Source: Haloplanus ruber
GTDB lineage: Archaea > Halobacteriota > Halobacteria > Halobacteriales > Haloferacaceae
Direction of reading: 5' to 3'
Length of the DNA: 64,000 nt
Assembly (NCBI RefSeq): GCF_024494725.1
Contig: NZ_JANHDK010000004.1
Span: forward strand, 62,001-126,000
Part shown: one piece after another, positions 3,185 through 62,040 of the stretch
How positions within the stretch are numbered: the first letter of the stretch is position 1
Layout: the number at the start of each line of letters is the position of its first letter
Notes under the pieces: generated by a model
What the model was told of the DNA's origin: nothing
Databases searched by the model: none
The model's input: only the letters and a program-made list of their open reading frames with translations
Made by a program: the position numbers and the translations under genes

Positions 3185-3191
3185 TCTAACT

Positions 3192-6083
3192 ATGAGCCAA
3201 AACTCAGAAAGCCAAGATAGCGATTCAGAACTGCAGAGTGTCGCAATTGAGGGAACACTTCCGTTGAAGGCGGTTGGTATCGAGAACCTGAAGGAGGCAA
3301 ACCCGAATCGGATGCCTCCTCATCGTTATCTCCATCCGTGGTTTGCTCGTCGACCTACTCCGGTGTCTAGACTAGCAACCCTTTCGTCGGTTCTTCCATC
3401 CGGAATTGATTCAAATACGATCCTTGATTGGATGCAAATTGGTCCTCGTGACGAAGTCGAAGTGGATATTCAGGAATACGTTGCCGAACGAAAGAGAACT
3501 GAAGGAGAGCGAACGGGCACCTTAGACGACCACTATGGCTATCCTCGTCCATATTCTCAAACCCCGACCTCTTCTGAAATGGAGGAGATTCATTCGCTTC
3601 TAAGGGAACGCTGGGATGGAGAGCTCCCGACGGTTTTAGATCCAACAGCTGGTGGGGGAGTGATCCCTCTAGAATCAGCCCGATACGGCCTCCCAACCAT
3701 AGCAAATGAACTCAATCCTGTCCCTACCGTAATCCTAAAAGTCATCTTGGAATATGCTCGTGAGGTTGGCTCAATATCAAATGAACTGAATAAGTGGGGC
3801 GATCAAATCAACGAACGTGCCGGGGAACGAGTAGAATCGTATTTCCCTGGAGCGAGAGACCACCAAACTCCGTCTCATTACGTTTGCACATATACGGTTG
3901 ATTGCCCTGAATGTGGCTGCGATATCCCGCTCGCTAAGAAGTGGTGGCTTAGGAAAAAGTCCTCTTCTGAAGGGGCAGCAGCTCGTCCGATTGTATCAGA
4001 GGACGGTTCGGAGATCAGCTATGAAGTTGTCCATCTGCCTGATGATGTTACAAAATCCGAATTTAATCCTCAACAGGGGCCACACACACGTAGTGGTGCT
4101 GAGTGTCTGAATTGTGGAATCGTTATGGAATCCGAAGAGATTCGGATCCGTCTTCGTGATGATGACTTCGACTATGAGCCGTATGGGGTGAAATATGTTA
4201 AGGCGGGCGGAGAAACAGGATGGCGGGCCCCGAACTCTGACGATTATGAGGCACAGAGGAAAGCTAGGGAACGGATCGATTCTGATTTTGAACTTAGCAC
4301 ACTCCTTGACGTTCAGAGGTACATCGGTGATGAAGATCGGGCTGGACCGTACGGTGTTACCAAATGGCGTGATGCGTTCTCTCCTCGACAGTTAGTTACT
4401 CAGTATGAATATCTTCGCGCCTTCAACGAATTGCAAGATGATGTTCTGTCAAATGAAGATGGAGACAAAGGAGAGGCAACGCTGACCGCCCTGTCTTTGG
4501 TAGCAAGTAAAATCGTTGACCGGAATTCTCGCTTCTCTCCTCTTGACACGAGGCTTGGTAACTTAGGTAACGCCCTTGGTGGAAAACACTTCACGCTTCA
4601 ATGGACCTTTGTTGAGAATAATCCCGCCTTAGGATTTCAGGATTATCATGACCATCTTAACCGAGTGCGAGATTCTTATCAAGAGATTGTATCATATTAC
4701 AACGAAGAAGCCGCTGATGATGTCCATATCTCTCAAAGTGACGCAGCAGATCTAGAGATTGACTCGGACTCGGTTCAAGCTGTTATCATTGATCCGCCGT
4801 ACTATGATAGTATAATTTACTCTGAGATGGCAGATATGTGCTATGTATGGCTGAAAGAATATCTCTCGGGCATATACCCTGAGATTTTCTCAGATGATCT
4901 TACTGACAAAGACAGTGAAGCTGTTGCTAATGTAGCTGAATATGAAGATGTAGCTTCGTCATCCAGTTCCAAGTCGGAACTGGCTGCTGAGGACTATGAG
5001 AACAAAATGAAGGATATATTTCAAGAGCTCTATAGAGTTCTTGAACCCGGTGGCGTTATGACCGTGATGTTCACCCATAAGGAATCTAGTGCATGGGATA
5101 CACTCACGAACTCTCTCATCCGATCTGGGTTTACAATAACTTCCACCCATCCTATCACCAGCGAAATGCCCCACAGGACGGATACTCAGGGTGGCGGTTC
5201 TGCCGACAGTACTCTACTCTTGACTGGTCGGAAGCCATACACCACGGCGGAGCATAGGAATGACGAGAGTCCCACTCTTTGGAGTGATGTTAGAGCGGAA
5301 ACAAGATCCGTCGCTAAGGATGCTGCACGTGATCTCCTGAATTCAGGGCTTTCGCTCACAAAAACTGACGTGATTATCTCTGCATTCGGTCCGACACTCA
5401 AAGTCTACGCTGATGCCTATCCGGTTGTTGATGACCAAGATCAGGAAATTCCTCCCCGCCGTGCTTTAGAAGAGGCTCGCGAGGCTGTAACCCGAGTTCT
5501 CGTTGATGAGTATCTTGAGGGAGAACGTCTCGGTAATTTAGACGATATCACAGAGTGGTATATTCTCTCTTGGTTAGTCCATGAATCAGATACCTTCGAC
5601 TATGATGATGGTCATCAATTAGGGCTTGGTCTTGGAGTTGATATCGACGGCATCAAACGCTCTACGAAAATTTGGGGAAAGAAACGTGGTGACATTCAGC
5701 TGAAGACCCACGATGACCGCGTCCAAGATATCACGCTCCCACCCGAAGAGAGATCGAGTCGGACACCTGTTGATCCTGATGCGCTGTCCTATACGGTCGC
5801 CCTCGATGCTGTTCATGCTGCGATGCATGTCTACGAGAAACAAGGCGAGGACGTCGCGATTGATTGGCTCAAAGAACGCAACTTCGATACAGACGCCGCG
5901 TTCAAGGCAACGCTGAAGGCTCTGCTCCAAGTCCTTCCTCAGAACAGTTCGGAGTGGGAGGCTGCTCGCGATCTCGCTCTGGGGCGAGCCCACGATGCAC
6001 TCGGTCTCGAATTCACGCCCACCGACTTTACTGACGCCGGAGAAGACAAACACGAACAGAGCGAACTCGACGATCACACCTAA
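3192..6083 (+). CDS. DUF1156 family adenine/cytosine-N DNA methyltransferase
   Basis: A 963-residue protein. The N-terminus carries the DUF1156 signature: a positively charged stretch with HRYLHPWFARRP near residues 45-55. The S-adenosylmethionine pocket is DPTAGGG near residue 153, followed by an acidic residue in ELNP. The catalytic motif is DPPYYDS near residue 533, of the D-P-P-Y type for exocyclic amino methylation (N6-adenine or N4-cytosine). A CxxC...CxxC zinc ribbon near 240-310 interrupts the domain. Such proteins methylate host DNA in modification-based phage defence. AT content is visibly higher than in the flanking genes, which suggests separate ancestry or relaxed codon use. It starts 7 bases after the small partner gene and ends 18 bases before the helicase gene. 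Confidence 0.85.
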   Translation: MSQNSESQDSDSELQSVAIEGTLPLKAVGIENLKEANPNRMPPHRYLHPWFARRPTPVSRLATLSSVLPSGIDSNTILDWMQIGPRDEVEVDIQEYVAERKRTEGERTGTLDDHYGYPRPYSQTPTSSEMEEIHSLLRERWDGELPTVLDPTAGGGVIPLESARYGLPTIANELNPVPTVILKVILEYAREVGSISNELNKWGDQINERAGERVESYFPGARDHQTPSHYVCTYTVDCPECGCDIPLAKKWWLRKKSSSEGAAARPIVSEDGSEISYEVVHLPDDVTKSEFNPQQGPHTRSGAECLNCGIVMESEEIRIRLRDDDFDYEPYGVKYVKAGGETGWRAPNSDDYEAQRKARERIDSDFELSTLLDVQRYIGDEDRAGPYGVTKWRDAFSPRQLVTQYEYLRAFNELQDDVLSNEDGDKGEATLTALSLVASKIVDRNSRFSPLDTRLGNLGNALGGKHFTLQWTFVENNPALGFQDYHDHLNRVRDSYQEIVSYYNEEAADDVHISQSDAADLEIDSDSVQAVIIDPPYYDSIIYSEMADMCYVWLKEYLSGIYPEIFSDDLTDKDSEAVANVAEYEDVASSSSSKSELAAEDYENKMKDIFQELYRVLEPGGVMTVMFTHKESSAWDTLTNSLIRSGFTITSTHPITSEMPHRTDTQGGGSADSTLLLTGRKPYTTAEHRNDESPTLWSDVRAETRSVAKDAARDLLNSGLSLTKTDVIISAFGPTLKVYADAYPVVDDQDQEIPPRRALEEAREAVTRVLVDEYLEGERLGNLDDITEWYILSWLVHESDTFDYDDGHQLGLGLGVDIDGIKRSTKIWGKKRGDIQLKTHDDRVQDITLPPEERSSRTPVDPDALSYTVALDAVHAAMHVYEKQGEDVAIDWLKERNFDTDAAFKATLKALLQVLPQNSSEWEAARDLALGRAHDALGLEFTPTDFTDAGEDKHEQSELDDHT

Positions 6084-6101
6084 CCCGGAACGCTTCCAGC
6101 T

Positions 6102-9100
6102 ATGACCAATCTACGTGATCACGAGTGGCAGTCCATCTACGAGAGCAAACCCGAACGGGGGCGAGCTCATCTCGTCAAGGACTTCTACGAGCCCGCACTA
6201 GAACGTAGCCAGCAATACGATCGGATCGCAGGCTACTTCTCTAGTACGGCACTTGCTGCCGCTGCAAACGGCGTTCATGCCCTCGTCGAGAACGACGGCG
6301 AAATGCGACTTATCGTCGGTACCGAACTCTACGAGACAGACCGCCCAGTCTTAGAGGCACTTACCGATCGCCTAGAAGAGAATCTCGAGGACCTTGATGA
6401 CGAACGCTTAGATGCGAACCTCCGTATCCTCGCCCGACTCCTCCGGGAAGGTCGTCTGCACATCAAGGTCGCGTACCCCCGTTCTCCATCCCACAACTGG
6501 GAGATCTTCCATCCAAAAGTCGGTCTCTTCCACGACAGCGACGGTAACACGATCTCGTTCGAGGGTAGCGTCAACGAGACCGTTGGCGGCTGGGCTCGCA
6601 ACTACGAGCGCTTCAAAGTCCACCGTTCGTGGATCCCAGAGCAGGCGGACTACGTCGACGGCGATGAGGAAACCTTCGAGCGACTGTGGAGCGATGAACA
6701 CCCCTTCGTCGAAGTGTATGATCTCCCCGAGGCAATCGAAGAGGACATTATTGACTGGAAGGCTCCCGACACCGAGAGCGACCTCCAAGAAGCGATTCAG
6801 ATTGCGAATGGTACTGCACCACCAACGGAGCGCGACAAGGCGCATATCATCCAGGATGGACCGCTCACGCCCGGTGGGCTCGCACTCGCCGAGGAAGCGA
6901 GTACGATTACTCCATGGCCGCATCAACGGGTGGTCTCGGACACGCTAGTCAACACGTATCCGCAAAGCTTCCTCCTGTGTGACGAGGTGGGGCTCGGGAA
7001 GACGATTGAGGCCGGCTTGACGCTCTCTCGGCTCGGTCTTACCGGAGAACTCGACACAGGACTGCTGCTTGTTCCGGCCAGCCTCCAGCGGCAGTGGCAA
7101 GAAGAGCTCTGGGAGAAATTCAACATCAACGCCGTCCGCTTCGATCGGGACACAGCGGGCGATCACGTATTCCGCGACGTCCGTGGTCGCGACTACTACC
7201 CACCGTCAGTAGCGGATCTTGAGCTCGCCGACGATTCCGAGTGGATCTCAAGTCCCATCTGGCGGTTCCTCTACGAGCAACAATCGGCTGCTACTGAGGC
7301 ATCGTCGCCGCTTGATGGACCGACGATCGTCATTATGTCGTGGCACACCGCTCGCCTCGACGACCGATGGGACCAGGTTGCGCCATTTGATCGTGTATCC
7401 GATCGATCTCGGGACGACATCCCCGCAAGTTGTCGGGGACGTGATTACGATGCGGAAGATCGTATGGGTGTGTGGGATGCCGTCCTCGTCGACGAGGCTC
7501 ACAACGCCCGACGCGGAAGCAATTTCTACGCCCTCCTTGAGCAACTTCGAGACTATACACACGCCTACTATCTCCTGACTGCAACCCCGATGCAACTCCA
7601 TTCGGGTGAACTCTACGACTTGATGCAGCTACTAGATCTCCCCGAGGGTTGGGACACCCGAGATATCTTCGTCGAATTTTTCGAAACCCGAGACGGCCTG
7701 TCGCAGGCGCTTGATGAGGCTCTCGACGAGTCCAGTTCACAGCCTGACGAAGCGGATGCTTCTTGGAACACCCAAGCCACGCTCGATGGATTAGAATATC
7801 AGGACCGTCTTCCGGCGGATCGACCATTCTCCTCAAAGGTGTTCCAGCACCTCGCTGAGGTGCTTGATATCAATGCAGACGGTCAGGACCGTGCAATCGC
7901 TAAAGAACGCGTCCTGACAGCGTGTCGGCTCGCACGAGCCTATGGAGACGCCTACGACGGCTATCTTGACCGTGTCGATGACGCGATGGCCGACTATGAT
8001 ATTGACCGCTTTGAGGCGAGCGAGGATACGAAGCTCAAGCGACTCCTCTATCCCGAGGACGCGGATGAGTGGCTGATGGCTTCTCGGAGCGACCGCCAGG
8101 ACGCATTAGATGAACTGTCGCCGGGTGGCTGGCGAGTCATTCGAGAGGTTATTTCGGAATCCACGCCGGTGGATGCGCTCATCCACCGGAATACGCGGGA
8201 TACCCTCCGCAAGTACGAGGCTGTGGGCCTCCTCGATACGACCGTCCCGGATCGAAACCCCGAACAGCGGAAAATCGAACTCACCGAGGAAACACGAGCA
8301 GTCTACGACCAAATCGACGAGTACACGCGAGAGTTCTATAAGCGAGCCCAGCAGACTGACGAAGCTCAAACACGCGCGATAGGATTCGTGATGACGACGT
8401 ATCGGCAACGGCTCACCTCCAGCGTCTATGCGATCAGTCAGAGCCTACAACACCGCCTTGAGACGCTCCGAGCGCAACGAACCGTGCTGGCCGGTCGTGA
8501 ACGTGCTCGCGACCGTGACTATGGCGACGCTGAGCAGATCGTCCTTGAGACACTACAAAATGCTGACCTCGATGATGGTGACGTGTTGGATGAACTCGAT
8601 GCGAGCAGCGATGAGTTAGATCTCTCCGAACTCATCCCGAGTGTGACTGAGGAAGGGAAACAGCTCATCGAGGAAGAAATCGAGGCACTGGAGGCCTTTG
8701 TCAGCGATCTGGATCGGGTTGACACTGACCCCAAGATTCAGCAGTTGTATGAAGACCTCGATGAACTGGACCGCGCTGGTCACAATCGAGTGATCGTCTT
8801 CACGCAGTACGCAGACACGATGGACTTCATCCGGGAGAGTCTCGTCGGCCTCCTTGGATCGACCATTGCTACCTATTCCGGCCGTGGTGGCGAACTGTAC
8901 GATCCCGAGTCTGGATCCTGGAAGAGCGTCGGGAAAGAACGTGTGAAACGCGAATTCTCGCGCGATGATGGGCAGGTCGACATCCTCGTCTGTACCGACT
9001 CTGCGAGTGAGGGGTTGAACCTCCAAGAGTGTGGGGCGCTCATCAACTACGATCTCCCCTGGAATCCGATGCGGGTCGAACAGCGTATCGGTCGGATTGA

Positions 9101-10040
9101 CCGTATCGGCCAGCGATTCGATGAGATTCGCATTCTCAACTACAGCTACGAGGACACTGTTGAGACCGATATCTATGATCGTCTTGACGACCGGATCGGT
9201 CTGTTCGAGAACGTCGTCGGTGAGATGCAACCCATTCTCTCGGGTGTTAGCCAACAGATCCGGGCTGCGACGTTGAACGCCGGCGACGAGGACAGCCAGA
9301 CAGTTGTCGAATCAGCTGACCGTGAGTTCTCCGAGCAACTTGAGAAACGCGACCAAGGTGACCGTGTCGACGTCGGTGAGTCGCTTGAAGAAGTCGATGA
9401 GCTCGTGGCACAGGACGTCGTCGACGAGGCCAAACTTGACGCCTGGCAGTCCTACAGCCATCCGGATCTTGTCGAGGTCGGGGAGGAAACGTACGAGTAT
9501 CAGCCCCCGTTCAGGACTCCGAGTCTACAGTCGGTTTTGACCGAAAACAGTACGCTACCTGAGGCTGGTATCGTATTCACACCGGTTTCAGGGATCGACT
9601 TCAAGTACGATGATGGATCATTCGAATTTGCGGACACCACATATCGCCTTTCTGTCGGTGACGCTTCGATTGAGGTACCAGTCAGCGATGGAGACCAGAC
9701 GGTCGCACAGGCTATTGCGCCTGCTGACAACGATATTGCAGTGACATTCTCCGCTGAATGTGCCGATGAATTCCCCTCAGTTCAGTATCTTGCACCGGGG
9801 CACTCACTTCTCAGCCAGCTTCTTACGATCCTCCAGAATCGGAGTGAGGAATCAACTCGCTTCGACCAGCGTATCGCGACTCGACCCGATCAGGAGACAA
9901 AACCTATTGTCTGCGGGTGGGGGCGAGATGGAGTATTCACGCGGATTGCAGACGATGGAACCGTTACTGAGAACGGACCGATGGATGACCTCCCATCGTG
10001 GTGTGATCGATTTCTCGAAAACCGGGATAAATCGACGTGA
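6102..10040 (+). CDS. PLD-like plus SNF2 helicase/translocase of the modification module
   Basis: A 1312-residue protein. Residues about 30-200 form a phospholipase D-like nuclease domain with the HPK motif (FHPKVGLFHD) and GSVNET. The SNF2 motor follows: Walker A in DEVGLGKT near residue 295, DEAH in LVDEAHNARR near 465, LLTATPMQ (motif III), and the C-terminal RecA lobe with QRIGRIDRIGQ (motif VI) near 1000. The last 300 residues are of unknown fold. In defence islands such proteins are thought to translocate on and cut unmodified DNA. This is the last gene of the four-gene operon, with 18 bases separating it from the methylase. All catalytic motifs are intact. Confidence 0.87.
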   Translation: MTNLRDHEWQSIYESKPERGRAHLVKDFYEPALERSQQYDRIAGYFSSTALAAAANGVHALVENDGEMRLIVGTELYETDRPVLEALTDRLEENLEDLDDERLDANLRILARLLREGRLHIKVAYPRSPSHNWEIFHPKVGLFHDSDGNTISFEGSVNETVGGWARNYERFKVHRSWIPEQADYVDGDEETFERLWSDEHPFVEVYDLPEAIEEDIIDWKAPDTESDLQEAIQIANGTAPPTERDKAHIIQDGPLTPGGLALAEEASTITPWPHQRVVSDTLVNTYPQSFLLCDEVGLGKTIEAGLTLSRLGLTGELDTGLLLVPASLQRQWQEELWEKFNINAVRFDRDTAGDHVFRDVRGRDYYPPSVADLELADDSEWISSPIWRFLYEQQSAATEASSPLDGPTIVIMSWHTARLDDRWDQVAPFDRVSDRSRDDIPASCRGRDYDAEDRMGVWDAVLVDEAHNARRGSNFYALLEQLRDYTHAYYLLTATPMQLHSGELYDLMQLLDLPEGWDTRDIFVEFFETRDGLSQALDEALDESSSQPDEADASWNTQATLDGLEYQDRLPADRPFSSKVFQHLAEVLDINADGQDRAIAKERVLTACRLARAYGDAYDGYLDRVDDAMADYDIDRFEASEDTKLKRLLYPEDADEWLMASRSDRQDALDELSPGGWRVIREVISESTPVDALIHRNTRDTLRKYEAVGLLDTTVPDRNPEQRKIELTEETRAVYDQIDEYTREFYKRAQQTDEAQTRAIGFVMTTYRQRLTSSVYAISQSLQHRLETLRAQRTVLAGRERARDRDYGDAEQIVLETLQNADLDDGDVLDELDASSDELDLSELIPSVTEEGKQLIEEEIEALEAFVSDLDRVDTDPKIQQLYEDLDELDRAGHNRVIVFTQYADTMDFIRESLVGLLGSTIATYSGRGGELYDPESGSWKSVGKERVKREFSRDDGQVDILVCTDSASEGLNLQECGALINYDLPWNPMRVEQRIGRIDRIGQRFDEIRILNYSYEDTVETDIYDRLDDRIGLFENVVGEMQPILSGVSQQIRAATLNAGDEDSQTVVESADREFSEQLEKRDQGDRVDVGESLEEVDELVAQDVVDEAKLDAWQSYSHPDLVEVGEETYEYQPPFRTPSLQSVLTENSTLPEAGIVFTPVSGIDFKYDDGSFEFADTTYRLSVGDASIEVPVSDGDQTVAQAIAPADNDIAVTFSAECADEFPSVQYLAPGHSLLSQLLTILQNRSEESTRFDQRIATRPDQETKPIVCGWGRDGVFTRIADDGTVTENGPMDDLPSWCDRFLENRDKST

Positions 10041-10802: not shown

Positions 10803-10958
10803 ATGGTGAATCGCTTTAAAATCGACGGCGAGGAAGTTCTCGACGGCGAGGTCAAACCGTTCGGGAACAGCGCCCACGTCACCGTCCCTAAACGCTGGCG
10901 TGGAGCCGACGTGAAAGTCGTCCGAACCTCAGAACCTACCGAACAAGACGACGAATGA
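10803..10958 (+). CDS. DUF2080 family transposon-associated protein
   Basis: A 51-residue protein immediately upstream of tnpB, overlapping it by four bases (ATGA). The sequence contains VKPFGNSAHVTVPKRWRG, which resembles an AbrB/SpoVT-like swapped hairpin and is the hallmark of the DUF2080 proteins that precede haloarchaeal tnpB genes. Its role is not established; DNA binding or autoregulation of tnpB is plausible. A TATA-like TTAAGTATA lies about 25-30 bases before the ATG, consistent with a leaderless message. Confidence 0.8.
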   Translation: MVNRFKIDGEEVLDGEVKPFGNSAHVTVPKRWRGADVKVVRTSEPTEQDDE

Positions 10959-12229
10959 CCGATTCACAGGCTCTCGTCAAGACGCTGGACTTCCAACTCA
11001 ACATCCAGAGTGACAACGAGGGTCTGCTGTACGATGCCACGCTCGAAGCCCGTCGGGTGTACAACGAAACCATCCGACTTGCCAAAGACGGCGTGGACTG
11101 GGACGTCATTCCCGACCGCGTGGCCGACGATGCCAACCTCGTGAAGAACACGACTCAGCGCGTCGTTGCCAAGGCACTCGGTGCGATGGAGAACTACTAC
11201 GAGTACGACGACTTCGGCCAGCCGAGTCACACCAAAGACGGTGCGTACCCGCTTCGTGCGAACTACAAGGAAGGGTACAACCTGTCGCTCACCGACGACG
11301 GGGACGTGGCGTTCCGTATCAGCGCGAAGCCGTACAAACACGTCAAGGGCGTCCTCGAAGGGAGTAATGCCCACCTCGACATTCTCAAGACTGCGCTCAC
11401 CAGTGACGAGTGGAAGATTGGGACAGCGGAAGCCCTCTTCCACAACGACAACGCTGAGTTGCACGTCAATGTCACCAACACCGAGCAGGCTGTTCGAGAC
11501 AAACACGACTCACGGACGCTCGTTGGCGTGGACGTGAACGAGGACAACGTAGCCCTCACCGCTCTGTCCGAAGACGGGGTTGAGGACACACTGATTATTG
11601 ACTTTCCCGAAATCAAGTTCGAGCGCCACCGCTACTTCACGATGCGGAAGCGCGTCCAGAACGCGGGAAAGGACAGCATCTACGAAACGTTGGAAGGGCG
11701 TGAGGAACGGTTTGTCCGCGACCGACTCCACAAGGTGTCTCGGCACATCGTGGAGTGGAGTCAGCACTTCGAGACGCCGTGTATCGTCTTTGAAGACCTC
11801 AAAGAGATGCGCGACAGTATCGACTACGGTACGCGGATGAACCGACGCTTGCACCACCTGCCGTTCCGTGCCCTTCAGTTCTATACGTCGTACAAGGCGT
11901 CGTTCGAGGGCATCCCAACTGGTTGGATTAATCCCGAGTACACAAGCCAACGGTGTCCGATGTGTGGGCATACGGAGCGTGTGAACCGCAACAAGAAGCG
12001 GTTCAAGTGCAAGGACTGTGAGCATCAAGACCACAGCGACCGTGGTGCAAGCGTCAACATCGCCGTGAAAGGCGTGAAGAAACTCGATTGGAATGTGCCT
12101 GCTCTCAACAGCCTTCCCGTTGCTCGGAAGGTGCGACGGCAGGCATCGGGGGCTGTGGACGTCCCGACCGTGACCCACCCGACCGTTCGAGGCTATCAGG
12201 CCGATGGTCGGATGGGAGTGTCCGACTAA
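10955..12229 (+). CDS. tnpB: TnpB RNA-guided nuclease of IS605 no. 1
   Basis: A 424-residue OrfB/TnpB protein. The RuvC catalytic residues are recognisable: D in VGVDVNEDN (near residue 191), E in FEDLKEMRD (near 283), and D in DHSDRGASVNIA (near 362). The zinc finger CPMC...CKDC lies near 332-350. The length is normal. TnpB is an RNA-guided DNA endonuclease, using an RNA from its own 3' end, that promotes retention of the transposon. The start overlaps the DUF2080 stop. It appears intact although its tnpA partner is broken. Confidence 0.9.
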   Translation: MTDSQALVKTLDFQLNIQSDNEGLLYDATLEARRVYNETIRLAKDGVDWDVIPDRVADDANLVKNTTQRVVAKALGAMENYYEYDDFGQPSHTKDGAYPLRANYKEGYNLSLTDDGDVAFRISAKPYKHVKGVLEGSNAHLDILKTALTSDEWKIGTAEALFHNDNAELHVNVTNTEQAVRDKHDSRTLVGVDVNEDNVALTALSEDGVEDTLIIDFPEIKFERHRYFTMRKRVQNAGKDSIYETLEGREERFVRDRLHKVSRHIVEWSQHFETPCIVFEDLKEMRDSIDYGTRMNRRLHHLPFRALQFYTSYKASFEGIPTGWINPEYTSQRCPMCGHTERVNRNKKRFKCKDCEHQDHSDRGASVNIAVKGVKKLDWNVPALNSLPVARKVRRQASGAVDVPTVTHPTVRGYQADGRMGVSD

Positions 12230-23073: not shown

Positions 23074-23985
23074 TTAGTGAGTTTGTACCCACAGTCTTCC
23101 CATCGTAGAGAGCTGCGTTTCCAGACGATTTCCGACCTTCTCACGGGCCACATATCCCTTCTCGTCGAGTTTCGAGACGTTGTACTGGACACGACTTCGG
23201 AAGGATTCATCGTATTCTTCTCCTTCCTTGGCAGCCAATTTCTTGGCAAGGACCGAGGTCGACTGGATTGGGTCTTTTCCAGAGAGAAAATTCAGAATAG
23301 TCTCTTCGAAATCATCTACGTCACTTCCTGGCGACGAAGGGAATTCAACGTACATCTGCCCATCGAGATTCTGTGCACCCTCGGTGATACCGTTGCTCTC
23401 GATTCGGTCCAAGACACTCCGAATTTCCTCGTACTGTTCGTGGACAGTCAAATCCTCGTACCGTTTCAGGTCATCAAGCGTATCCGCAGCGTTTTCGAGA
23501 ACTTCTCTCATCCGGTGTACCAGATACTCATCGGGCGAAACATAGTACGTGTGGAGCATGTCCCGGATCTCTTCCACATCCTCCAATTCTTCCCGATCCT
23601 CAGCAATTATCGAATCCGCTGCAGTAGCAAACGCAAACGCAACCGTTCGTGGCATCGACGAGATATTCACGAAAACCTCGTTCCCCTCCTTCAATTCGTC
23701 AAAAATGAAATCGTACGCCTTTGGATAGAGAGTCTCGTAATCGAACATCTCCTTCGTATCAAGTGGTTTCAGTTCGACCTCGATATCGATCAACTCGAAG
23801 GATTCCACCAACTTATCGGCCATCTTCGCCGCGAGCTCCGCGGCCTTATTCGTTCCCTCATCCTCTGGATCGCCTTTGTGGGTCACGAGAACTACACGGT
23901 CAGCATCGATATTCCCTTTGGAAATTGGGTAAATCAGGCGATCAAAGTCGAATCCCACCGGGATGAAGTGGACTCGTTCGGTCAT
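23074..23985 (-). CDS. Orphan CARF-winged-helix regulator (HFX_2341/DUF6293-like)
   Basis: 303 residues. The N-terminal 130 form a Rossmann-like CARF fold: HFIPVGFDFDR at the first strand, RVVLVTHKG at the second, and EVFVNISSMPRTVAFAF at the ligand loop near 105-120. The C-terminal 80 (LAKKLAAKEGE...RVQYNVSKLDEKGYVAREKVGNR) form a winged helix. CARF domains bind cyclic oligonucleotides in type III CRISPR and related systems; Csa3 is the close analogue. No CRISPR array or Cas gene is present in this window, so the signal source is unknown. Confidence 0.75.
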   Translation of the reverse strand: MTERVHFIPVGFDFDRLIYPISKGNIDADRVVLVTHKGDPEDEGTNKAAELAAKMADKLVESFELIDIEVELKPLDTKEMFDYETLYPKAYDFIFDELKEGNEVFVNISSMPRTVAFAFATAADSIIAEDREELEDVEEIRDMLHTYYVSPDEYLVHRMREVLENAADTLDDLKRYEDLTVHEQYEEIRSVLDRIESNGITEGAQNLDGQMYVEFPSSPGSDVDDFEETILNFLSGKDPIQSTSVLAKKLAAKEGEEYDESFRSRVQYNVSKLDEKGYVAREKVGNRLETQLSTMGRLWVQTH

Positions 23986-24283
23986 GGTTCCTCCTGTCTG
24001 AGACTCATGGTAAAGACCTTCGTTATGCGCTTTCTACGAGGGTAGAATTATGTGTTTATCGGCTATGGAATTGACTGAGAACACTAATTCATCCTCTTTG
24101 TAGAAAATCTGTCCAACATGTTTATCCCTGTTCATCACTTGGTCTCACGTAGGCACCACAGAGACAAAACGTGCCTGAGAGATCCGATATGCCCGGTGAC
24201 CGATTCCCCCACGAGTTCGTACCGAAGATACAACCGAGCTACCACGTTGATCAGATGGTCTACAGGGGCAACGAGGTCGATAA
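23986..24283. other. Divergent promoter region
   Basis: Lies between the CARF gene (minus) and the gene at 24284 (plus). AT-rich stretches near 24040-24120 fit TATA elements in both directions. No further gene seen. Confidence 0.4.
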
Positions 24284-25114
24284 ATGAGTTCGTATTCAAC
24301 ACCTCCAAGCTCCCGTAGAGGCCAGCAAACCCTCCACGAGATAGCTGTATCCCGCCTCATCAGTCAGTTCCCTGCCGGGATCATCCTCCGCTACGAAGCC
24401 GACAATGACCAGTTGGAGGACTTCATCCTCGGGAACAAGCTCATCACCTACGTGATGTTCAACTTCTCCGATGCGGTGGAGCTCGTCGAGGAGCACGAAT
24501 CCTTGCACTCCTACCTGTCTAATTGGCAGGTGCCCATCGTTACGGCAACCGAGGCCGACGACATACTCAAAAATCGAACACGCGACAACATCCGACACCT
24601 ACTGGAGCGAATCCAGCCGGCGATCTACATCCCGGATGCCGGGAAGGTCTACGGCAACGACCTGAAGTCCAAACAACGAGGTGGACTTCGGGAGTATCGG
24701 ATCCGAGTTGACTGGGTTCTCGACGAGATCGAGCGACAAGGATGGGAGATTGAAATCCTCCCGCTCGCGAAGGCGATGGAGCCGTGGCAGTTCAAGGAAA
24801 TGCTCCCGTGGTATCGGAAACACGGGTTCCAGAACTTCGCGTTCTACGCGAGACAATATTACACCCACGGCAATCGGTTCAACGACCTCCGAGACCACAC
24901 GAACAACCTCGTAGACTTCGCCAACCCGGACAATATCTTCATGATTGCACTCCACGGCGAGACTCATCTACGAAAGCTCCCATCGCGAGTTAACGGAGCA
25001 GCTGGCCTCAAGCAATTCATAGACGACTGCAACTACGATAATGACCAGTTCGAGCCGTGGCGAGACGACCTCGAAGCGAACGCCCTGAACGCACCCGACA
25101 TCCTAGAGTACTAA
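24284..25114 (+). CDS. Possible TIM-barrel protein of a two-gene unit
   Basis: 276 residues. Strand-like segments recur at regular spacing: LITYVMFNF, WQVPIVTATEA, PAIYIPDAG, WEIEILPLAKA, QNFAFYARQYY and IFMIALHGE. This alternation suggests a TIM barrel, loosely like tRNA-guanine transglycosylase-type enzymes, but no catalytic signature is secure. The second gene starts 2 bases after its stop, so the two products probably act together. The start at 24284 follows an AT-rich leader. Function not assigned. Confidence 0.5.
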   Translation: MSSYSTPPSSRRGQQTLHEIAVSRLISQFPAGIILRYEADNDQLEDFILGNKLITYVMFNFSDAVELVEEHESLHSYLSNWQVPIVTATEADDILKNRTRDNIRHLLERIQPAIYIPDAGKVYGNDLKSKQRGGLREYRIRVDWVLDEIERQGWEIEILPLAKAMEPWQFKEMLPWYRKHGFQNFAFYARQYYTHGNRFNDLRDHTNNLVDFANPDNIFMIALHGETHLRKLPSRVNGAAGLKQFIDDCNYDNDQFEPWRDDLEANALNAPDILEY

Positions 25115-25116
25115 CA

Positions 25117-26178
25117 ATGGGTAACAGTCCTACCGGAACGAGCGAGACCGTCGACGACGAAGAGGAAGAGCAAGAACCCTCAGTTCACCCCAACCAAACG
25201 GAAGTTGAGGACCACGATACCTCCGAGGGGGAGACTACGGTCGCACCACCCAACGATGGGGGTGGTGCTGGAGGTGCAGGTGCAGCGGCAGGCGCGGCAG
25301 CAGGTGCAGGTGCGGCTCCCGTCCCGACTGGTGGTGAGACTGAGGCTCCCGACGAAGACGAACCTGAGGAAGAATCCGAAGTTCCCGAACCATACGAGTC
25401 CCCCGACCCGTCCGACTCACCCGAACCACCGGAGGACTGCGAGCACCCGGACGACTCAACGGACGAAGAGGAAGACGAGGAACAGGAGCAGAAGGAGGCC
25501 GAGATAACCGTCCACACTGATCCCTGGGACGCTACTGGATGGGGAAACGAACCCGACCTCCGTCGTCTTCAAAAGATCTTCGGGGGCAACCTCACAGTCG
25601 AGTACAACCCACTCCCACCTCGTACGATTGACGAGTGGGACTCCACTATCGAGATGCCCACCGTCGACGACCTTGACCTTCCGGAATCCACTACGGAATC
25701 ATATCGAGCACTCATTGCCGCTCAAAGGCAAGGTCTTGCCCGCGAGTACCTTCGGCGACTTCGGATCGCTGCGCTATCGGATGGACGGGATATCGAGGAT
25801 GAATACATCCTAATCGAGCTCGCCGAAGAGACTGGTCTCGACACCGATCAACTTCGAGCAGACATGGCGAACATCGACGTTCCCGAACCGAGTGGGGAGA
25901 TGCCACGGATCGAGGCCATGATTGGTGACCTCCCACACAGTTGGGTTGGGAATATCGAGTCCGGTCGAATCTTCGCTCGCATGGTCGGGGAAAACGTCCA
26001 ACCCGAACCGACTGGAAGGTCTATCCCGCAGTTCGTCATGGAGTATGAACCCGTCGCAACGACAGAAGTCGCCGAGACCTTCGAACTGGACCGAAACCAA
26101 GCGGTGGCGGAACTTCGTCAATCGGAGAATACCGTTCCTCGCGACCCCGGTGTCGAGGCATTTTGGGTTACTGTCTAA
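25117..26178 (+). CDS. Acidic linker plus DsbA-like fold lacking CxxC
   Basis: 353 residues. The first 140 are disordered: acidic and proline-rich, with an Ala/Gly segment (GGAGGAGAAAGAAAGAG). The remainder reads as the DsbA/FrnE thioredoxin fold: TDPWDATGWGNEPDLRRLQ (normally DPxCPWxW...EPxLRRL), then EYLRRLRIAALSDGRDIED and LAEETGLD, the typical helical insertion. No cysteine stands at the active site, so disulfide chemistry is unlikely; it may have become a binding or scaffold module. Coupled to the preceding gene (2-base gap). The first methionine of the longer frame (25057) lies within the upstream gene; 25117 is preferred. Confidence 0.6.
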   Translation: MGNSPTGTSETVDDEEEEQEPSVHPNQTEVEDHDTSEGETTVAPPNDGGGAGGAGAAAGAAAGAGAAPVPTGGETEAPDEDEPEEESEVPEPYESPDPSDSPEPPEDCEHPDDSTDEEEDEEQEQKEAEITVHTDPWDATGWGNEPDLRRLQKIFGGNLTVEYNPLPPRTIDEWDSTIEMPTVDDLDLPESTTESYRALIAAQRQGLAREYLRRLRIAALSDGRDIEDEYILIELAEETGLDTDQLRADMANIDVPEPSGEMPRIEAMIGDLPHSWVGNIESGRIFARMVGENVQPEPTGRSIPQFVMEYEPVATTEVAETFELDRNQAVAELRQSENTVPRDPGVEAFWVTV

Positions 26179-26242: not shown

Positions 26243-27159
26243 ATGGTCACGGGCTTCTACGCGGCACTTGCGGCAGCAGTCAGTGTCTTTATCGGTATTC
26301 TCACTGCCTTGCTCAAAAGCAACCTCTCCAATCTAAAAGCCAACGAGAACAGATTGAGCGCCGAATTGGGGCCATAAACTCGGAACTTCCACATCTCACC
26401 GGGCAACTGGAAGAAGTCGAAGAAATAATCGATCAGAAAGAGGAAGCGATTGACGAGGTCCGCGACGATCTGCCGGATGATATCGACCGGGAGGAGCGGA
26501 ACCGCCGGATCCGCGAGGTCCGGGAGCCCTACGAAGAGATGGATCCACTACCCGGCGACGAAGCTGAGGAATTCGCGGAGCTGCAGGATCAGTTACAGGC
26601 GGAGCGTAAGGAGATCATGGATACCATCGAGAACGAGATTCGGCAGGCGTTCGGCCACTACAAGAAGGGCAACCGGTGGACCAGCGAAACCATCCTTTAC
26701 CAGCTCGTGGAATCGAACTATCCTGATCACACGATAAAGCGTCACTACCGGCCGGACTTTCTCGACGGACTGGAGCTGGATATCTTTCTGGAAGAAGCCG
26801 AGGTCGGGATTGAATACCAGGGAATCCAGCACTACGATGCAGTGGATCACTGGGGTGGCAAAGAAGGCCTCAAACAACGGCAGGAGCGCGACCAGAAAAA
26901 GAAGGATCTGTGCGACAAGCACGATATCGATCTGGTATGCATCCGGCACGACCAGGAATTGACGGATGCACTTATCGAACGGACAATCGACCCGTTGATT
27001 AAGGAATGGTTGTGCTGCGTGGTGTCAGACAGCGGTCGATTCTTCCGCAGAAGATCGTTTGTGATGGTATCGGAGGCTTCCCGCAACCGCCATACCGAAC
27101 AGGATGCCGACACCGTGCGCCACAATATTTGTCAATCCGCTGCCAGACGTGATATCTGA
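26243..27159 (+). pseudogene. Membrane-anchored Vsr-like nuclease, frameshifted
   Basis: Frame 1 from ATG at 26243 gives a membrane segment (FYAALAAAVSVFIGILTALL) and stops at 26377. Shifting frame within the CTAAAAGCC stretch near 26330 gives SQREQIERRIGAINSEL and an open coiled coil to a C-terminal nuclease: RPDFLDGLELDIFLEEAEVG, IEYQGIQHY, then QERDQKKKDLCDKHDI. The D...E-x-Q core is that of Vsr/PD-(D/E)XK proteins that use a membrane anchor. The last 50 codons overlap the convergent gene at 27025-27243 and are unlikely to be original. It needs one base change or slippage to work. Confidence 0.6.
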
Positions 27160-27450: not shown

Positions 27451-29580
27451 TTAGGTGGGGGCCTCCACGGTAATCGCCTCGTCGGTGGGTGACCAGGTAT
27501 GCTTGTTCTGCTCGGCGAGACCGACGTTCTGGAGGCGACTCAGAATCGAACCCACTTCGTTTCGTTCTGTACCGTTCGAATTTGGTTCTGTGAACGGTGA
27601 ATCGGGAAGTTCGCACACATCCCCGTGGATGACACGGCGAACCGCGCCGCCGGTGTTCTGGCGGAGTGCCTTGAGGACGAACTGTTCCTCCGCCGTAAGC
27701 CGGTCAATGGCGTCTGCAGGTTCTTCAACGCCGCCAAGACGTGTCTCAGGGGTCTCCCATTCTTCGAGAACAAACTCGATTATCGCCTCCTCGCGGTCCT
27801 CGATATTTTCGACAGACCACTCGTCGTAGTTGTCTTGGATGTCCCACTGAACCCAGAGCTTCGACTCTACGTACCCTTCGTCGCGCTTTGTCTCGAACGC
27901 AGCGTTCCCCCACTTCGAGTTCCACGATCTGCTTGCCAACGTGAGGTTCCCGAGGCGGTGAACATATGCATCATACCGAGCTTCGGGACTCGGATACTCG
28001 TCGGCATCCTGGATCGGGAGTTCGTCAGGACTCTGTGGCCAGATGTGTTCGACCGTGTATTCGTTACTCATTGCTTCCGAGAGCGTCGGGCCCCCACGTT
28101 CACCCTTCTCGTCAGCTCGGTGTTCGTTGTAGAAGTAGAAGAGGTACCGAAGGTCCTGTGAGCTTGCTTTCGAGTAGAGGTCTGCAGCGGACAGTGACCG
28201 TCGGAATTGCGAGTCGTCCTCGTATCGATTCATCAGGGAGACGACTTTGCTCACCCAGACATCGGCAGGGCTGTCCTTGCTGAGGTTCCGAGTGCGGACG
28301 TAAAGGCTGGATTCACCAGTGTGGCTCCGATGGTTCCCAATAGAGTAGACGCGGAAGATGTACGTCTCAATCGCGTTCAGAAGCTCCTGTCTCCCGTCAT
28401 CATCGAGGTTCGGCCAGGCTTTGAGGAGCAGCGGGTAGAAATTCGTCGCATGACGCAGGCGATGTATCCGCTGGACAAGCGTCGAGATGTCGTCGTCGTC
28501 AGTACGGTCGAGTACTTTCGCTAACGCGTTGAACCCGCGCTCCAAGCTGTTGGTGTAGTCGCGGATGTATTCCAAGCACGCTTGAGAGTCTTCCCTTCGA
28601 AGCGTGCGAACGTGTTCTTTCAGTTCGGTGAGGAAGGCAGGATCGCTGTACTCGTCGGAGTTTGACCAGTCGAAGTACGAGATGAAGTGATACCGCTGGA
28701 CCGCATCGTCGCTGATGTCGGTGACGTACGGTGACTCCAGCATTGTCTGGTGGTCGTTATACATCTCTCCGAAGGACTGCCGAATGCGGCGAATGGTTGC
28801 TTGGGCCTCACCTTCGTCGGCCGCAGCGAGGTAGGCCATCCGCATCAGGAAGGACTTCGTCTTGTCGAACGTTGAGAGGGACCGACCGCGATCGTTGACG
28901 CTGTCGAATATGAGTGTCGCCTTCTCCGGGTTGGCTGCGTCAACGACGTACACCATCAGTTCGAGTTCTAGGATGGTCTCCCAGAGTTGCTTGAGTTCGG
29001 TGGCGACGTCTACGGGATTGACACCAGGGGACGCAGTGAGATTATCGAGTTGTTCGTCGAAGTATTCCTTCGCCTCGATCATCTTCCGCTGAGACGGGCG
29101 CTCTGGCTCGTGAACGTCGTGCCCGGTAAGCAACCATTCGAGGTACTTGTTGTCTTCCTCGTCAAGTAATTGGAGCTGATAGATGTTGTCCTCTACGAGA
29201 AGCGTCTCGCGCATCTCTTCGACGTCGCTGAGTATCTCGGCCTCGTGATCCGTTTCCGGTGCGATATCCTCCAGACTCTCCGTCATTGAGCGCACCAGCA
29301 ACGCAAGCGAGGTGAGGCGTTGTTGGCCATCGATGAGGAGGTTGATCGGTTTCTCTCTAGAAGATCCGTATCTACCAGTACCCCCACCGCTTTCCGTTTC
29401 ATCCGTCTTCTGGATGATGATCGTCCCGAAGTAGTGCTGCTTGTCCGGAGGTAGCGTGTAGAGGTCAGTCCAGAGGTCGTCCCACTCCGGTTCGGTCCAC
29501 GAGTAGTACCGCTGGTACTCCGGAACGTGGAACACCCCTGCTGTCGTCAGTTCTTCTAACGATTTCTTTCCCGATTCCAT
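27451..29580 (-). CDS. GmrSD-type restriction enzyme (DUF262-DUF1524)
   Basis: 709 residues. The N-terminus has PEYQRYYSWTEPEWDDLW and the ParB-like DGQQRLTSLA (DUF262, nucleotide-dependent). The C-terminal DUF1524 is an HNH nuclease: EHIWPQ near 510, HRLGNLTLASRSWN near 545. A winged-helix tail follows. Single-chain GmrSD proteins are type IV restriction enzymes that attack modified (for example glucosylated hydroxymethylated) phage DNA and need NTP. Target here is inferred. The gene is divergent from an HhH-GPD-like gene, whose ATG lies about 100 bases away, so they may share a regulatory region. Confidence 0.85.
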   Translation of the reverse strand: MESGKKSLEELTTAGVFHVPEYQRYYSWTEPEWDDLWTDLYTLPPDKQHYFGTIIIQKTDETESGGGTGRYGSSREKPINLLIDGQQRLTSLALLVRSMTESLEDIAPETDHEAEILSDVEEMRETLLVEDNIYQLQLLDEEDNKYLEWLLTGHDVHEPERPSQRKMIEAKEYFDEQLDNLTASPGVNPVDVATELKQLWETILELELMVYVVDAANPEKATLIFDSVNDRGRSLSTFDKTKSFLMRMAYLAAADEGEAQATIRRIRQSFGEMYNDHQTMLESPYVTDISDDAVQRYHFISYFDWSNSDEYSDPAFLTELKEHVRTLRREDSQACLEYIRDYTNSLERGFNALAKVLDRTDDDDISTLVQRIHRLRHATNFYPLLLKAWPNLDDDGRQELLNAIETYIFRVYSIGNHRSHTGESSLYVRTRNLSKDSPADVWVSKVVSLMNRYEDDSQFRRSLSAADLYSKASSQDLRYLFYFYNEHRADEKGERGGPTLSEAMSNEYTVEHIWPQSPDELPIQDADEYPSPEARYDAYVHRLGNLTLASRSWNSKWGNAAFETKRDEGYVESKLWVQWDIQDNYDEWSVENIEDREEAIIEFVLEEWETPETRLGGVEEPADAIDRLTAEEQFVLKALRQNTGGAVRRVIHGDVCELPDSPFTEPNSNGTERNEVGSILSRLQNVGLAEQNKHTWSPTDEAITVEAPT

Positions 29581-30664: not shown

Positions 30665-32551
30665 TTAGTTCTGGCTACAGTATTCATGAACATGTTCCAT
30701 AATATCGACAATCTCGGTTGGGTGTTCCACATCGTCTAATCTCCCCATCTTAAGCCCTATGTTTGGTTTAGTCACACTGGGGCAGTCTTGGAGATTCTGC
30801 GCGCAGCCACCTCGAATGGTGTCAACGATTTCGTCACTCGGTTTCTCTGCCTCGTCTACTGACTGAAAATGGATTTCATCCCAGTCATTGCCGTCTGCAC
30901 GCGGCCAGTGTTCTTCAGCGAGTTGAGCTAAATCATCCTTCTCCCACGTGTCTTCAAGTTCCTTGTCACCGACCCAGACGAGTTCTGGTTCCGAACCGCT
31001 GACTTCGTACATATCTTCAAGGTGGTCTTCAAGAGTATCTTCAGAATGGGTTTCCTCTTTTGCATCGGAATCTAGGATAACGAACGTTCGTGCTCGTCCA
31101 CTCTCCTGAAGGCGTTCAAGGGTTTTAACGATATGGCCACATCCCTGACTATCCCAGACTTGAACACCATCCTCGACGAGGGTGCTACCGGTGACTTGGT
31201 GGTATAGTTCTTCGATATATTTGTGTTCAGTTGCACCCTCTACGACAATCATCGCTCGTTCGAGATAGACCCAGCTGGCAGAGAGTCCCAAACCGGCCAT
31301 GATGTTGCCCATGAAATCCTCAGCCTCTGCTTCATCTTTCGAAACTAGCGGCGCTCTTTCGTCGTTGGCATCCACTTCTTCAGGGAGATATACTACTTCA
31401 TGTAAGGGAGTACCATCGACCATAATCAAACTATGAGTTGAGACGATACACTGGGAGAGATAACTATCTTCATCCGAGATGTCGCTCCGGAGAAGATTGA
31501 TCAGCCTCCGTTGGACGTCAAAATGGAGCCGGTGATCCGGTTCGTCCATCGTCCGGATGACGGATTCTTTTCTTTCGTTGACCTCTGCGCTCCATTCAAG
31601 CATTGAGAGGGCCGAGCGGGCATTAGTTCCGCCACCCAGTTCTTGAAGCGGGATCTGTTCACCGTCTCGGCGAAGCACGATATTGGAGAGATCTGCCCCA
31701 TTGACAAAACTCCAATCAGGATCTACTGTGATCTGGTCCAGACCAGGGAGGTATCGCTCCATCCTGTCGGAAAGGCTTTCGAGTCGTTCGTTAAGCGCAT
31801 CCGTCGCCTGTTCCTCAATTTCGACAAGCTCGTCAACTCCACTCTTCTCACCATCCTCATCCTCGGCATAGAGGAACGATTTGGTTTCTTGACGGAGTAG
31901 TTTTGAGAGTAACTTGATTGGACTGTCTACATCCTCGGTATCGATTTGCTCACTGGCTGGAGCTAAACGACTGAATTCTCTGGTTCCGCAAGAGACCCAA
32001 TCAAGACAGGTATCTTCGGGATTTTCGAGGATCTCAGCTTTCAATTCCTCAAACTGTTCTTCCCGCTCATCAGCGTTGCTTCCTGGCTCAATATCGTAAT
32101 CCTCCAGAATCTCCTTTTCGCCGTCCGCATAATAGTCCCATTCGTGGAGTCGTTCATCTTCGGGAACCCGCTCTCTGAGATAGTGGTCTGGGGACTCCAA
32201 ATAGAGATCTTCTTCTGAATCTCCAGTTACTTCCCATTCGATCTTTAGCCCTGCAGCATCGTCATCCTCAAGATTGGCACGATTTGCCAGGTCGTCTGGC
32301 GGGTTTTCAATGATCGCCTCGATTGAGGCCTCGGGTGCTCTTCTGGTGTCTCGTGTCACATCACGCCGGATCTGCTCAATGTCTAGACTCGAATGATCGC
32401 ATACAGTCTGTAATGCCTCCAAGAGAGTGGTTTTTCCAGCGTCGTTAGGGCCCACTAAGAGTGTAAATGGGGTCAGCTGGAGTGTTAAGTCCTCAAATTT
32501 CCCGATGTTCTCAACTGAGAGTCGTGAAACGTGAGTCAGTCTGTCACTCAC
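30665..32551 (-). CDS. OLD-family ATPase with TOPRIM nuclease
   Basis: 628 residues. ABC-type ATPase: Walker A GPNDAGKTT near residue 35, a Walker-B region with MDEPDHRLH near 340, and ISTHS-like VSTHSLIMVD near 383. The TOPRIM nuclease follows: VVEGATEHKYIEELY (Glu of motif I) near 440 and FVILDSDAKEE (DxD) near 500. Overcoming-lysogenisation-defect nucleases cut DNA in phage defence. No UvrD-type helicase follows, so it is not the Gabija arrangement but a class 1-like solo OLD. The downstream gene (30481 end) is convergent. Confidence 0.85.
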   Translation of the reverse strand: MSDRLTHVSRLSVENIGKFEDLTLQLTPFTLLVGPNDAGKTTLLEALQTVCDHSSLDIEQIRRDVTRDTRRAPEASIEAIIENPPDDLANRANLEDDDAAGLKIEWEVTGDSEEDLYLESPDHYLRERVPEDERLHEWDYYADGEKEILEDYDIEPGSNADEREEQFEELKAEILENPEDTCLDWVSCGTREFSRLAPASEQIDTEDVDSPIKLLSKLLRQETKSFLYAEDEDGEKSGVDELVEIEEQATDALNERLESLSDRMERYLPGLDQITVDPDWSFVNGADLSNIVLRRDGEQIPLQELGGGTNARSALSMLEWSAEVNERKESVIRTMDEPDHRLHFDVQRRLINLLRSDISDEDSYLSQCIVSTHSLIMVDGTPLHEVVYLPEEVDANDERAPLVSKDEAEAEDFMGNIMAGLGLSASWVYLERAMIVVEGATEHKYIEELYHQVTGSTLVEDGVQVWDSQGCGHIVKTLERLQESGRARTFVILDSDAKEETHSEDTLEDHLEDMYEVSGSEPELVWVGDKELEDTWEKDDLAQLAEEHWPRADGNDWDEIHFQSVDEAEKPSDEIVDTIRGGCAQNLQDCPSVTKPNIGLKMGRLDDVEHPTEIVDIMEHVHEYCSQN

Positions 32552-44439: not shown

Positions 44440-44459
44440 CCCACGGCTAAAGCCGTGGG
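44440..44459 (-). repeat. Right-end hairpin of IS605 no. 2
   Basis: CCCACGGCT and AGCCGTGGG arms around a two-base AA loop; the tnpB stop codon lies inside. The same arms recur at 51881-51900. Confidence 0.7.
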
Positions 44460-45601
44460 GTTCCCCCACTGGGGGTTGAACCCACGGATACGGAGAGGTT
44501 CGCAGGTTCGTCGTCGCGTTGGACGATGACCTGCGTTTTGGGCTGTGCCAGTACAGCCCCCGCCTCGGACAGCGGTTTCGAGAACTTGCCCAAGGCTCGT
44601 TTGCCGATGTTCAGCGCACCGTTCTTGTCCGCGTTGTCGTCCAACCCACACTCGGGACACTCGAAACGTCCCTGCGTCTCACGAACGCCCTCACAGGCAC
44701 ACCGACTGCAGGTCTTCGACGTGTCGTATTCTTCGATCAACTGCACGTCGATGCCCGCGTCGTGGGCCTTGTATTCGATGTAGTTCAGCAGGCGGGCGAA
44801 CGGCATCTTGTGGGTCTTGTCGTTGACGTACCGTCCTTTATCGTTGTCCTTGCGAATCCCACCGAGGTCGCCCACAACGATGATTGCGTTCCGTTCCTCG
44901 GCATCCTCTACGATTTGCCGAGCAATCTTGTGGAGCCGGTCGTCCACCTTCCGCGCCTCAGCGTCACCGATGCGCTTGACCACCTGCTGTCCATGTCGGG
45001 GTTTCGCCTTCCCGATGGACTTGCGGAGTTGCTTGTAGTGTTCGCGGATACGACGGACTTCCTTGCCGTAGAAGGTGGTCTTGCGGTCGGAGAGGAACGC
45101 GCAGGTAGCGACCCACCGTGCGCCCATATCGATGGCCAGCACGTCGTCGTACTCGTCGGCCACGGTCACAGACCGTTTGACGACGAGATGGACGTACCAG
45201 TCACCGTCACGGCGCACCAGTTCGCTGTCCCCAAAATTCCCGTCGCGGACGAGTTGTTCGTCCTTCTGAGGGACGTAGGCGGGACACCAGATGGAGTTGC
45301 CCCGCTCCTGTTCGGGGTCGTAGACGGGGACTTTGACCCACCACGACGAGAGAACGGTGTCCTCGTCGTGAGCCACGCCGAACACGTCGTTCCGGAGGAC
45401 AACAGGCTGTTTGGTGTCGGGGTTCGGGTCTTTCTGTCGTTGCACCTTCGACGCCTGCTGGTCGGTCGCAGAGTAGAGATTGGCGTCTCCATCATGAACA
45501 GCAGTCTGAAACGCCTCGTACTCATGGGCGAGCAGGTCAGCCTTCCTGTTGGTCAGCGAGTGGAGTTTGACCCGCACCGTGGTTGAAATGTTCCGTTCCA
45601 T
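44447..45601 (-). CDS. tnpB: TnpB RNA-guided nuclease of IS605 no. 2
   Basis: 384 residues from ATG at 45601 (MERNISTTV); upstream codons of the longer frame lie in tnpA. RuvC motifs: D in LAIDMGARW near residue 170, E/D in VVGDLGGIR near 255, and D in DDNADKNGALN near 340. Here the second acidic residue is D rather than E, a known variant that needs checking. The zinc finger CSRC...CPEC is near 313-335. Intact length. Confidence 0.85.
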   Translation of the reverse strand: MERNISTTVRVKLHSLTNRKADLLAHEYEAFQTAVHDGDANLYSATDQQASKVQRQKDPNPDTKQPVVLRNDVFGVAHDEDTVLSSWWVKVPVYDPEQERGNSIWCPAYVPQKDEQLVRDGNFGDSELVRRDGDWYVHLVVKRSVTVADEYDDVLAIDMGARWVATCAFLSDRKTTFYGKEVRRIREHYKQLRKSIGKAKPRHGQQVVKRIGDAEARKVDDRLHKIARQIVEDAEERNAIIVVGDLGGIRKDNDKGRYVNDKTHKMPFARLLNYIEYKAHDAGIDVQLIEEYDTSKTCSRCACEGVRETQGRFECPECGLDDNADKNGALNIGKRALGKFSKPLSEAGAVLAQPKTQVIVQRDDEPANLSVSVGSTPSGGTPRL

Positions 45602-45602
45602 A

Positions 45603-46016
45603 CTACTCACCTGCTTGGGCGTCGATGTACTCCTCAATGACTTCGCTGGATACGTCGCCCGCACTTGAGACGAAGTACGAGCGCGTCCACAGCGAAGGGA
45701 GACCAAAATCGAACTCGTCGCGGAGGTGGCGCGAAGAGTAGCCCTTGACCTGTTGCATTATCTTGTTCGGGGCAAGCGTCGGGTCGCCCGTGATGAACAA
45801 GTGTACGTGGTCAGGGCGAATCGCCAACTCCAGTATCTCTAAGTCGAGTTCGTCGGCCTTTCCCTCAATGAGTTCTTCGAGACGGTCACGTACCTCGCCT
45901 TCAAGAACCGATTTGCGGTACTTCGGGCACCAGACAAAGTGATACTGGAGTTTGTGGACGTTGGTACGTTCCCTGTCGAACCCACGAGGCATCGTCATTA
46001 TATAGAAGTCACTCAC
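45603..46016 (-). CDS. tnpA: IS200-type Y1 transposase, intact
   Basis: 137 residues (the ATG at 45992, MPRGFDRE, is another plausible start). HUH motif HVHLF near residue 73, YHFVWCPKYRK near 25-35, and the catalytic tyrosine in RSYFVSSAGDV near 113. Performs single-strand peel-and-paste transposition. One base separates it from tnpB. Confidence 0.88.
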   Translation of the reverse strand: MSDFYIMTMPRGFDRERTNVHKLQYHFVWCPKYRKSVLEGEVRDRLEELIEGKADELDLEILELAIRPDHVHLFITGDPTLAPNKIMQQVKGYSSRHLRDEFDFGLPSLWTRSYFVSSAGDVSSEVIEEYIDAQAGE

Positions 46017-61710: not shown

Positions 61711-62040
61711 ATGAATATGAGTAAACGTTCAACGATTCTGATTGCGATTTTTGTTATTGCGATTGTGGTTACGTCCGGTGCATATATAGTTTCACAGCGG
61801 CTTAGCACAGAAAACCATGAAGCCATCTCCGTGGAACCAGTAAACGGATCTAATTTTGATGGACATCTTATTTCGTATGATAATCTTACTGCTGCTCAAC
61901 AATCTGCATTTCTGGATGCACTAAATGAAGATGGATTGGTTGAAGTTGACGACGATGTAGATACTAGTGTCTGGATAGAGTACGATGCTGTACGATATAG
62001 AGGAGATTTATTTCGGGTATATGTGGCGGTTGGAGATTGA
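61711..62040 (+). CDS. Small exported protein with N-terminal anchor
   Basis: 109 residues; STILIAIFVIAIVVTSGAYIV forms an N-terminal membrane anchor, then a polar domain (LISYDNLTAAQQSAFLDALNEDG, WIEYDAVRYRGDLFRVYVAV). Resembles small secreted haloarchaeal proteins of unknown function. Confidence 0.55.
   Translation: MNMSKRSTILIAIFVIAIVVTSGAYIVSQRLSTENHEAISVEPVNGSNFDGHLISYDNLTAAQQSAFLDALNEDGLVEVDDDVDTSVWIEYDAVRYRGDLFRVYVAVGD

Follow-up and report, generated by a model that had tools for sequence, protein, structure and literature searches.

In type IV CBASS, protein deazaguanylation, which was described only in 2025 and for one client type, is carried out by Cap9, which joins CDG, a 7-deazaguanine, to the N-terminal glycine (Gly2) of the CD-NTase. 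The modified tail is then bound by Cap10, a tRNA-guanine-transglycosylase (TGT)-family protein (Wassarman et al. 2025, PMC11996544; PMC13279940). An N-terminal Gly and a disordered tail are required in both CBASS and Qat, and in qatABCD (QatB/QatC), which uses a QueC-like enzyme and a client whose head is not a CD-NTase, a long disordered tail with a conserved MG start (MGTS) is essential for defence (Gao et al. 2026, PMC13279940). A Cap10-type reader outside CD-NTase systems was not found in the literature searched.

The window analysed here is a stretch of 64,000 nucleotides of Haloplanus ruber (GCF_024494725.1, NZ_JANHDK010000004.1, positions 62,001 to 126,000), lying on a 360 kb contig. 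It carries a two-gene unit that resembles type IV CBASS in having a TGT-fold protein by prediction, a client with an N-terminal Met-Gly and a flexible tail, and a defence setting, and close relatives of this TGT sit with CD-NTases. It differs in that the client head is a DsbA/YjbH-like domain and not a nucleotidyltransferase, that there is no Cap9 in the operon, and that some host genomes have no QueC. Compared with Qat, a TGT-like protein is present and a QueC-like gene is not. The positions of all features are listed in the table; loci and genomes of the comparison are numbered with L and G, respectively.

Features of the window and of related loci, with positions in the sequence named
Sequence	Position	Strand	Feature
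Window	23074..23985	-	CARF (HFX_2341/DUF6293-type) winged-helix regulator, divergent
Window	23986..24283	.	Shared intergenic region between the CARF gene and the pair (presumed regulated promoter)
Window	24284..25114	+	Gene 1: TGT-fold (Cap10-type) barrel protein (predicted), 276 aa
Window	25117..26178	+	Gene 2: partner ('client'), 353 aa; Met-Gly start, disordered leash, DsbA-fold domain without cysteines, C-terminal winged-helix-like domain
Window	25117..25122	+	Met-Gly N-terminus (MGNSPTG)
Window	25117..25497	+	Acidic Ala/Gly/Pro-rich disordered leash, residues 1-127
Window	25498..25890	+	DsbA/thioredoxin-fold domain; active-site CxxC replaced by D138-A-T-G141
Window	26014..26175	+	C-terminal winged-helix-like domain
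Window	26539-27159		Downstream gene, first annotated as a nuclease
Window	414-10040, 27451-29580, 30665-32551		Hma-like system (HmaC/DUF499, HmaB-type methylase, PLD-helicase), DUF262-type HEC-06/Orf5 protein and OLD/GajA-like ATPase
Window	10955-12229, 44447-45706		Two IS200/IS605-like (TnpB-type) transposon genes
L070	7754-9733		TGT + MGN-tailed ThsB-type TIR + 8xMP membrane protein
L071	3154-4732		CD-NTase/TGT operon next to queDEC
L091	5600-7400		Two copies of the queC 3' end
L169 (window's genome, contig C1)	3201-8031		Two TGT-domain proteins (413 and 668 aa) with an ATPase-like gene

Sequence and predicted structure of the two proteins

The first-pass annotation, made from the sequence alone, had described a possible TIM-barrel protein followed by a cysteine-less protein of DsbA/FrnE pattern on an acidic leader of 140 residues, and this observation was confirmed. 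The two genes are 2 bp apart, with gene 2 starting at an ATG; a longer GTG-started ORF (25057) overlaps gene 1 and is not needed. When compared with the nearest relative (genome G233), both genes were found to be under purifying selection (dN 0.10 and 0.19 against dS 1.2-1.5). The dN/dS values were 0.07 for gene 1, 0.16 for the DsbA part and 0.23 for the leash, so all three parts are maintained, the leash most loosely.

Gene 1 was not matched by Pfam. However, the PADLOC TGT model of CBASS (PDLC00912) matched it with an E-value of 2e-30 over residues 25-251, and 44 of 45 family members also matched. The AlphaFold2 prediction (pTM 0.80, 16 sequences) was an eight-stranded alpha/beta barrel, and a Foldseek search of the PDB with this model returned TGTs as top hits (E 2e-5) and as nearly all matches with E<0.001, with a TM of about 0.57. 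The solved Cap10 structure was not among the listed fold hits. Sequence searches of the PDB with gene 1 or its profile gave only noise, and profile comparison with haloarchaeal arcTGT found nothing, though that profile was very shallow (template Neff 1.4), so the link to TGT rests on PADLOC and the predicted fold. The TGT zinc-site cysteine cluster is absent from the window protein, which has a single Cys (249), and the Pfam TGT family (PF01702) matched only a few relatives weakly, below the cut-off. Gene 1 is thus a TGT-fold protein of the CBASS type by prediction and is unlikely to be a working tRNA enzyme; that nucleobase binding is kept is an inference.

Gene 2 passed the Pfam cut-offs for DSBA (PF01323) and Thioredoxin_5 (PF13743). 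Haloarchaeal DsbA relatives with a CxxC read TDPxCTWCWG, whereas the window protein reads TDPWDATGWG, so both cysteines are gone, and none of the clients examined has a cysteine at those two positions. The one cysteine of the window protein (C108) is in the leader. The leader is about 127 residues long rather than 140, and consists of 35% Asp+Glu and 35% Ala/Gly/Pro with a single Lys/Arg. In the structural model, pLDDT was below 50 for residues 1-77, mostly below 60 to about residue 120 and 70-96 after that. The fold models of the two proteins rest on only 15-16 sequences.

The best fold match of gene 2 in the PDB was YjbH/SpxH in complex with Spx (6ghb; E 9e-13, TM 0.68 by target), which likewise has a thioredoxin domain plus a C-terminal domain, and FrnE as the model for gene 2 was dropped in its favour. 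YjbH is a protease adaptor whose cysteines are dispensable for Spx turnover in B. subtilis and S. aureus (PMC7253607), which supports the first-pass idea of a binding module. The resemblance is at the level of fold. YjbH is a Firmicute protein without a leash or a TGT partner, haloarchaea use other proteases, and the protease link in haloarchaea is speculation. The likely source of the head is the group of haloarchaeal DsbA-family proteins at L073-L081, which have the same layout of DsbA plus winged-helix domain, the latter seen in the predicted secondary structure of gene 2. These proteins keep the CxxC or one Cys, have no leash, and sit next to GST-like and DoxX-like genes.

Partners of the TGT-like proteins in haloarchaea

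Single-protein scans of viral contigs and a first scan of genome contigs found nothing; with a tighter alignment, 15 named loci were obtained, while the viral contigs remained empty. Of 391 haloarchaeal genomes, 56 hold relatives of gene 1. A total of 60 loci (52 clusters at 90% identity) were read, and in about 50 loci the barrel gene was followed within a few bases by a gene starting Met-Gly with a flexible tail. Of the 47 clusters with an intact adjacent partner, 34 had an unambiguous Met-Gly start, six more had one besides an upstream in-frame start, and seven did not (three MFVFLG, three M(P/T)RKGG and one MSSD). The background in the same neighbourhoods was 30 of 432 (6.9%). Since partners within a head type are related, the clusters are not fully independent. 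The stronger point is that five unrelated head types share the rule, namely DsbA, CD-NTase (SMODS; PF18144, PADLOC cyclase 1.6e-162), ThsB TIR (ThsB_TIR 1.4e-17), an unknown domain and short proteins. The CD-NTase and TIR heads are immune signalling modules.

Gly2 was invariant in the DsbA-type clients aligned. It is not universal, however, as the three MFVFLG clusters are of the DsbA type and the three M(P/T)RKGG clusters are of the unknown head. At L085, L087, L090, L099, L146 and L147, the partners start MFVFLGSYSGG with no ATG before the Gly, while sister loci have both MFVFMG and MG starts; potentially, a short leader is translated and removed. At L070, the TGT of the same family is followed by the TIR head with the MGN tail fused to it and by an adjacent membrane-protein gene, forming a TGT-linked unit resembling Thoeris. 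At L108, L110, L120, L122 and L124, the TGT-like proteins are followed by short (about 90-165 aa) or 1015-aa proteins starting MGGRYGG/MGGG, without a Pfam match in those tested.

On the TGT tree, the DsbA clients, including that of the window, form one clade (18 rows, support 100/98), as does the unknown head (10 rows, 99/97), and the five labels need only 6 changes against 29 when shuffled. The client is DsbA-like in the window and its clade, CD-NTases being found only in related loci. Wide occurrence of each gene without the other, which had been named beforehand as a refutation of the pairing, was not seen within the clade. All 18 TGTs of the DsbA clade have this partner (one of them frameshifted), and the two cysteine-less DsbA genes found without a TGT (L100 and L101) are decayed, having lost the leash or the reading frame.

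A Cap9 partner was sought and not found. No QueC motif lay next to the pair in the window or its relatives, except for the queC of a housekeeping queDEC near L071. The window's genome has a complete queD-queE-folE-queC cluster with one housekeeping QueC, and the two further TGT-domain proteins of L169 are encoded beside it. Among 29 TGT-carrying genomes, five have no full-length QueC, and two of these (G197 and G219) carry the TGT-DsbA pair, although this absence depends on assemblies rated about 99% complete. All 13 genomes tested, including those without QueC, carry a YhhQ-family (preQ0 transporter) protein. Whether the queC-adjacent setting of L071 and the queC 3'-end copies of L091, on a contig that carries the pair, mean a functional tie was considered, but an integration hotspot is simpler, the queC 3' end looking like an integration site for such islands.

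Interpretation of the pair

The pair is best explained, with moderate confidence, as a two-part immune module built on the logic of type IV CBASS but with a different head. In this view, the first protein would be a TGT-fold protein that has lost tRNA-modifying features and holds the N-terminal tail of its partner. Removal of methionine would expose Gly2, which would be threaded through the flexible acidic leash into the barrel, probably carrying a 7-deazaguanine-type tag or binding such a base together with the tail. The cysteine-less YjbH-like head would act by binding another protein, most likely as an adaptor or sensor and not as an oxidoreductase, and the TGT would thereby keep the partner inactive or poised until infection, with a CARF regulator tuning expression in some loci. 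The analysis itself established, from sequence and prediction, the folds and family, the Met-Gly starts, the conserved pairing, the exchange of clients across the TGT tree and the linkage to CARF genes, whereas binding of the tail, the presence of any tag, the adaptor role and antiviral function are inferred. The first-pass interpretation was supported in part. It was right about a barrel, a DsbA fold without catalytic cysteines, a leash, a stable two-gene unit, a CARF neighbour and a defence context, but it missed that the barrel is a TGT-fold, CBASS-type protein, that the informative part of gene 2 is its Met-Gly N-terminus, that the same barrel family carries other heads, and that the DsbA part looks like YjbH rather than FrnE.

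Two alternatives concern the chemistry of the tail, which is either unmodified, modified by the TGT with salvaged base, or modified differently. Full type IV CBASS-like chemistry, with Gly2 deazaguanylated in trans by the housekeeping QueC and the conjugate read by the TGT protein, fits the shared TGT family, the Met-Gly tail and the que cluster of the window's genome, but the CBASS chemistry cannot be assumed given the lack of a dedicated Cap9 nearby and the genomes without full-length QueC, and it is considered unlikely. Slightly less likely is that the TGT-fold protein is itself the writer, using free preQ0, made or imported, to modify the partner's N-terminus or to clamp it non-covalently with the base. 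The YhhQ-family proteins are compatible with this, and two weak Pfam TGT matches place the conserved [IVL]P-x-D Asp at the same profile position. However, the zinc-site cluster is absent from the window protein, and free preQ0 also serves archaeosine, so that the transporter is not specific evidence.

A toxin-antitoxin-like or chaperone-client pair without a nucleobase, in which the barrel simply masks a glycine-tailed partner, was judged about as doubtful as the latter. The strict adjacency, likely translational coupling and exchange of heads agree with it, but it does not explain why the barrel has a TGT fold and belongs to the CBASS TGT family. An ordinary redox or metabolic pair unrelated to defence is very unlikely: although RefSeq names relatives of gene 2 'DsbA family protein', the catalytic cysteines are absent throughout the clade, the gene 1 family otherwise partners CD-NTase and TIR proteins, and the pair lies in a defence island.

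It is also possible, though somewhat less likely than not, that haloarchaea carry a modular immune chassis in which a TGT-fold reader grips the glycine tail of interchangeable heads (CD-NTase, TIR, YjbH-like adaptor and others), with a tail state that does not need Cap9. The DsbA version would then be a new head class, a Cap10-gated protein-binding or degradation adaptor in place of a second-messenger enzyme. A family of TGT readers with swapped heads would make tail reading a general control device in prokaryotic immunity, and the QueC-less hosts would provide test cases for whether the reader needs the modified base at all. It also offers a first clue to what cysteine-less DsbA proteins in haloarchaeal islands do.

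Genomic context and a PIP-box-like motif

The first-pass annotation had placed the pair between a CARF regulator and a nuclease. The CARF regulator is real (PF19810, E 2e-20), and a gene of the same HFX_2341-type family is divergent and directly upstream in 18 of 60 TGT loci, with DsbA, CD-NTase and unknown heads alike, although the ten genomes counted have only 1-6 such genes each. The 'nuclease' matched no Pfam family and was rejected as a part of the unit, since it is not a conserved neighbour and its place is taken by different genes in relatives. The Hma-type, HEC-06-type and OLD/GajA-like genes of the window indicate a defence island, and the two transposon genes, read from the ORF translations, flank the island region.

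A PIP-box-like motif (Qxx[LIVM]xx[FYWH]) ends 45 of 56 TGT-like proteins (about 3 expected by shuffling) and lies in the leash of 14 of 17 DsbA-type partners, at L062, L066, L069, L070, L071, L072, L097 and other loci. The window's own TGT has lost the motif. A link to the sliding clamp PCNA is possible.
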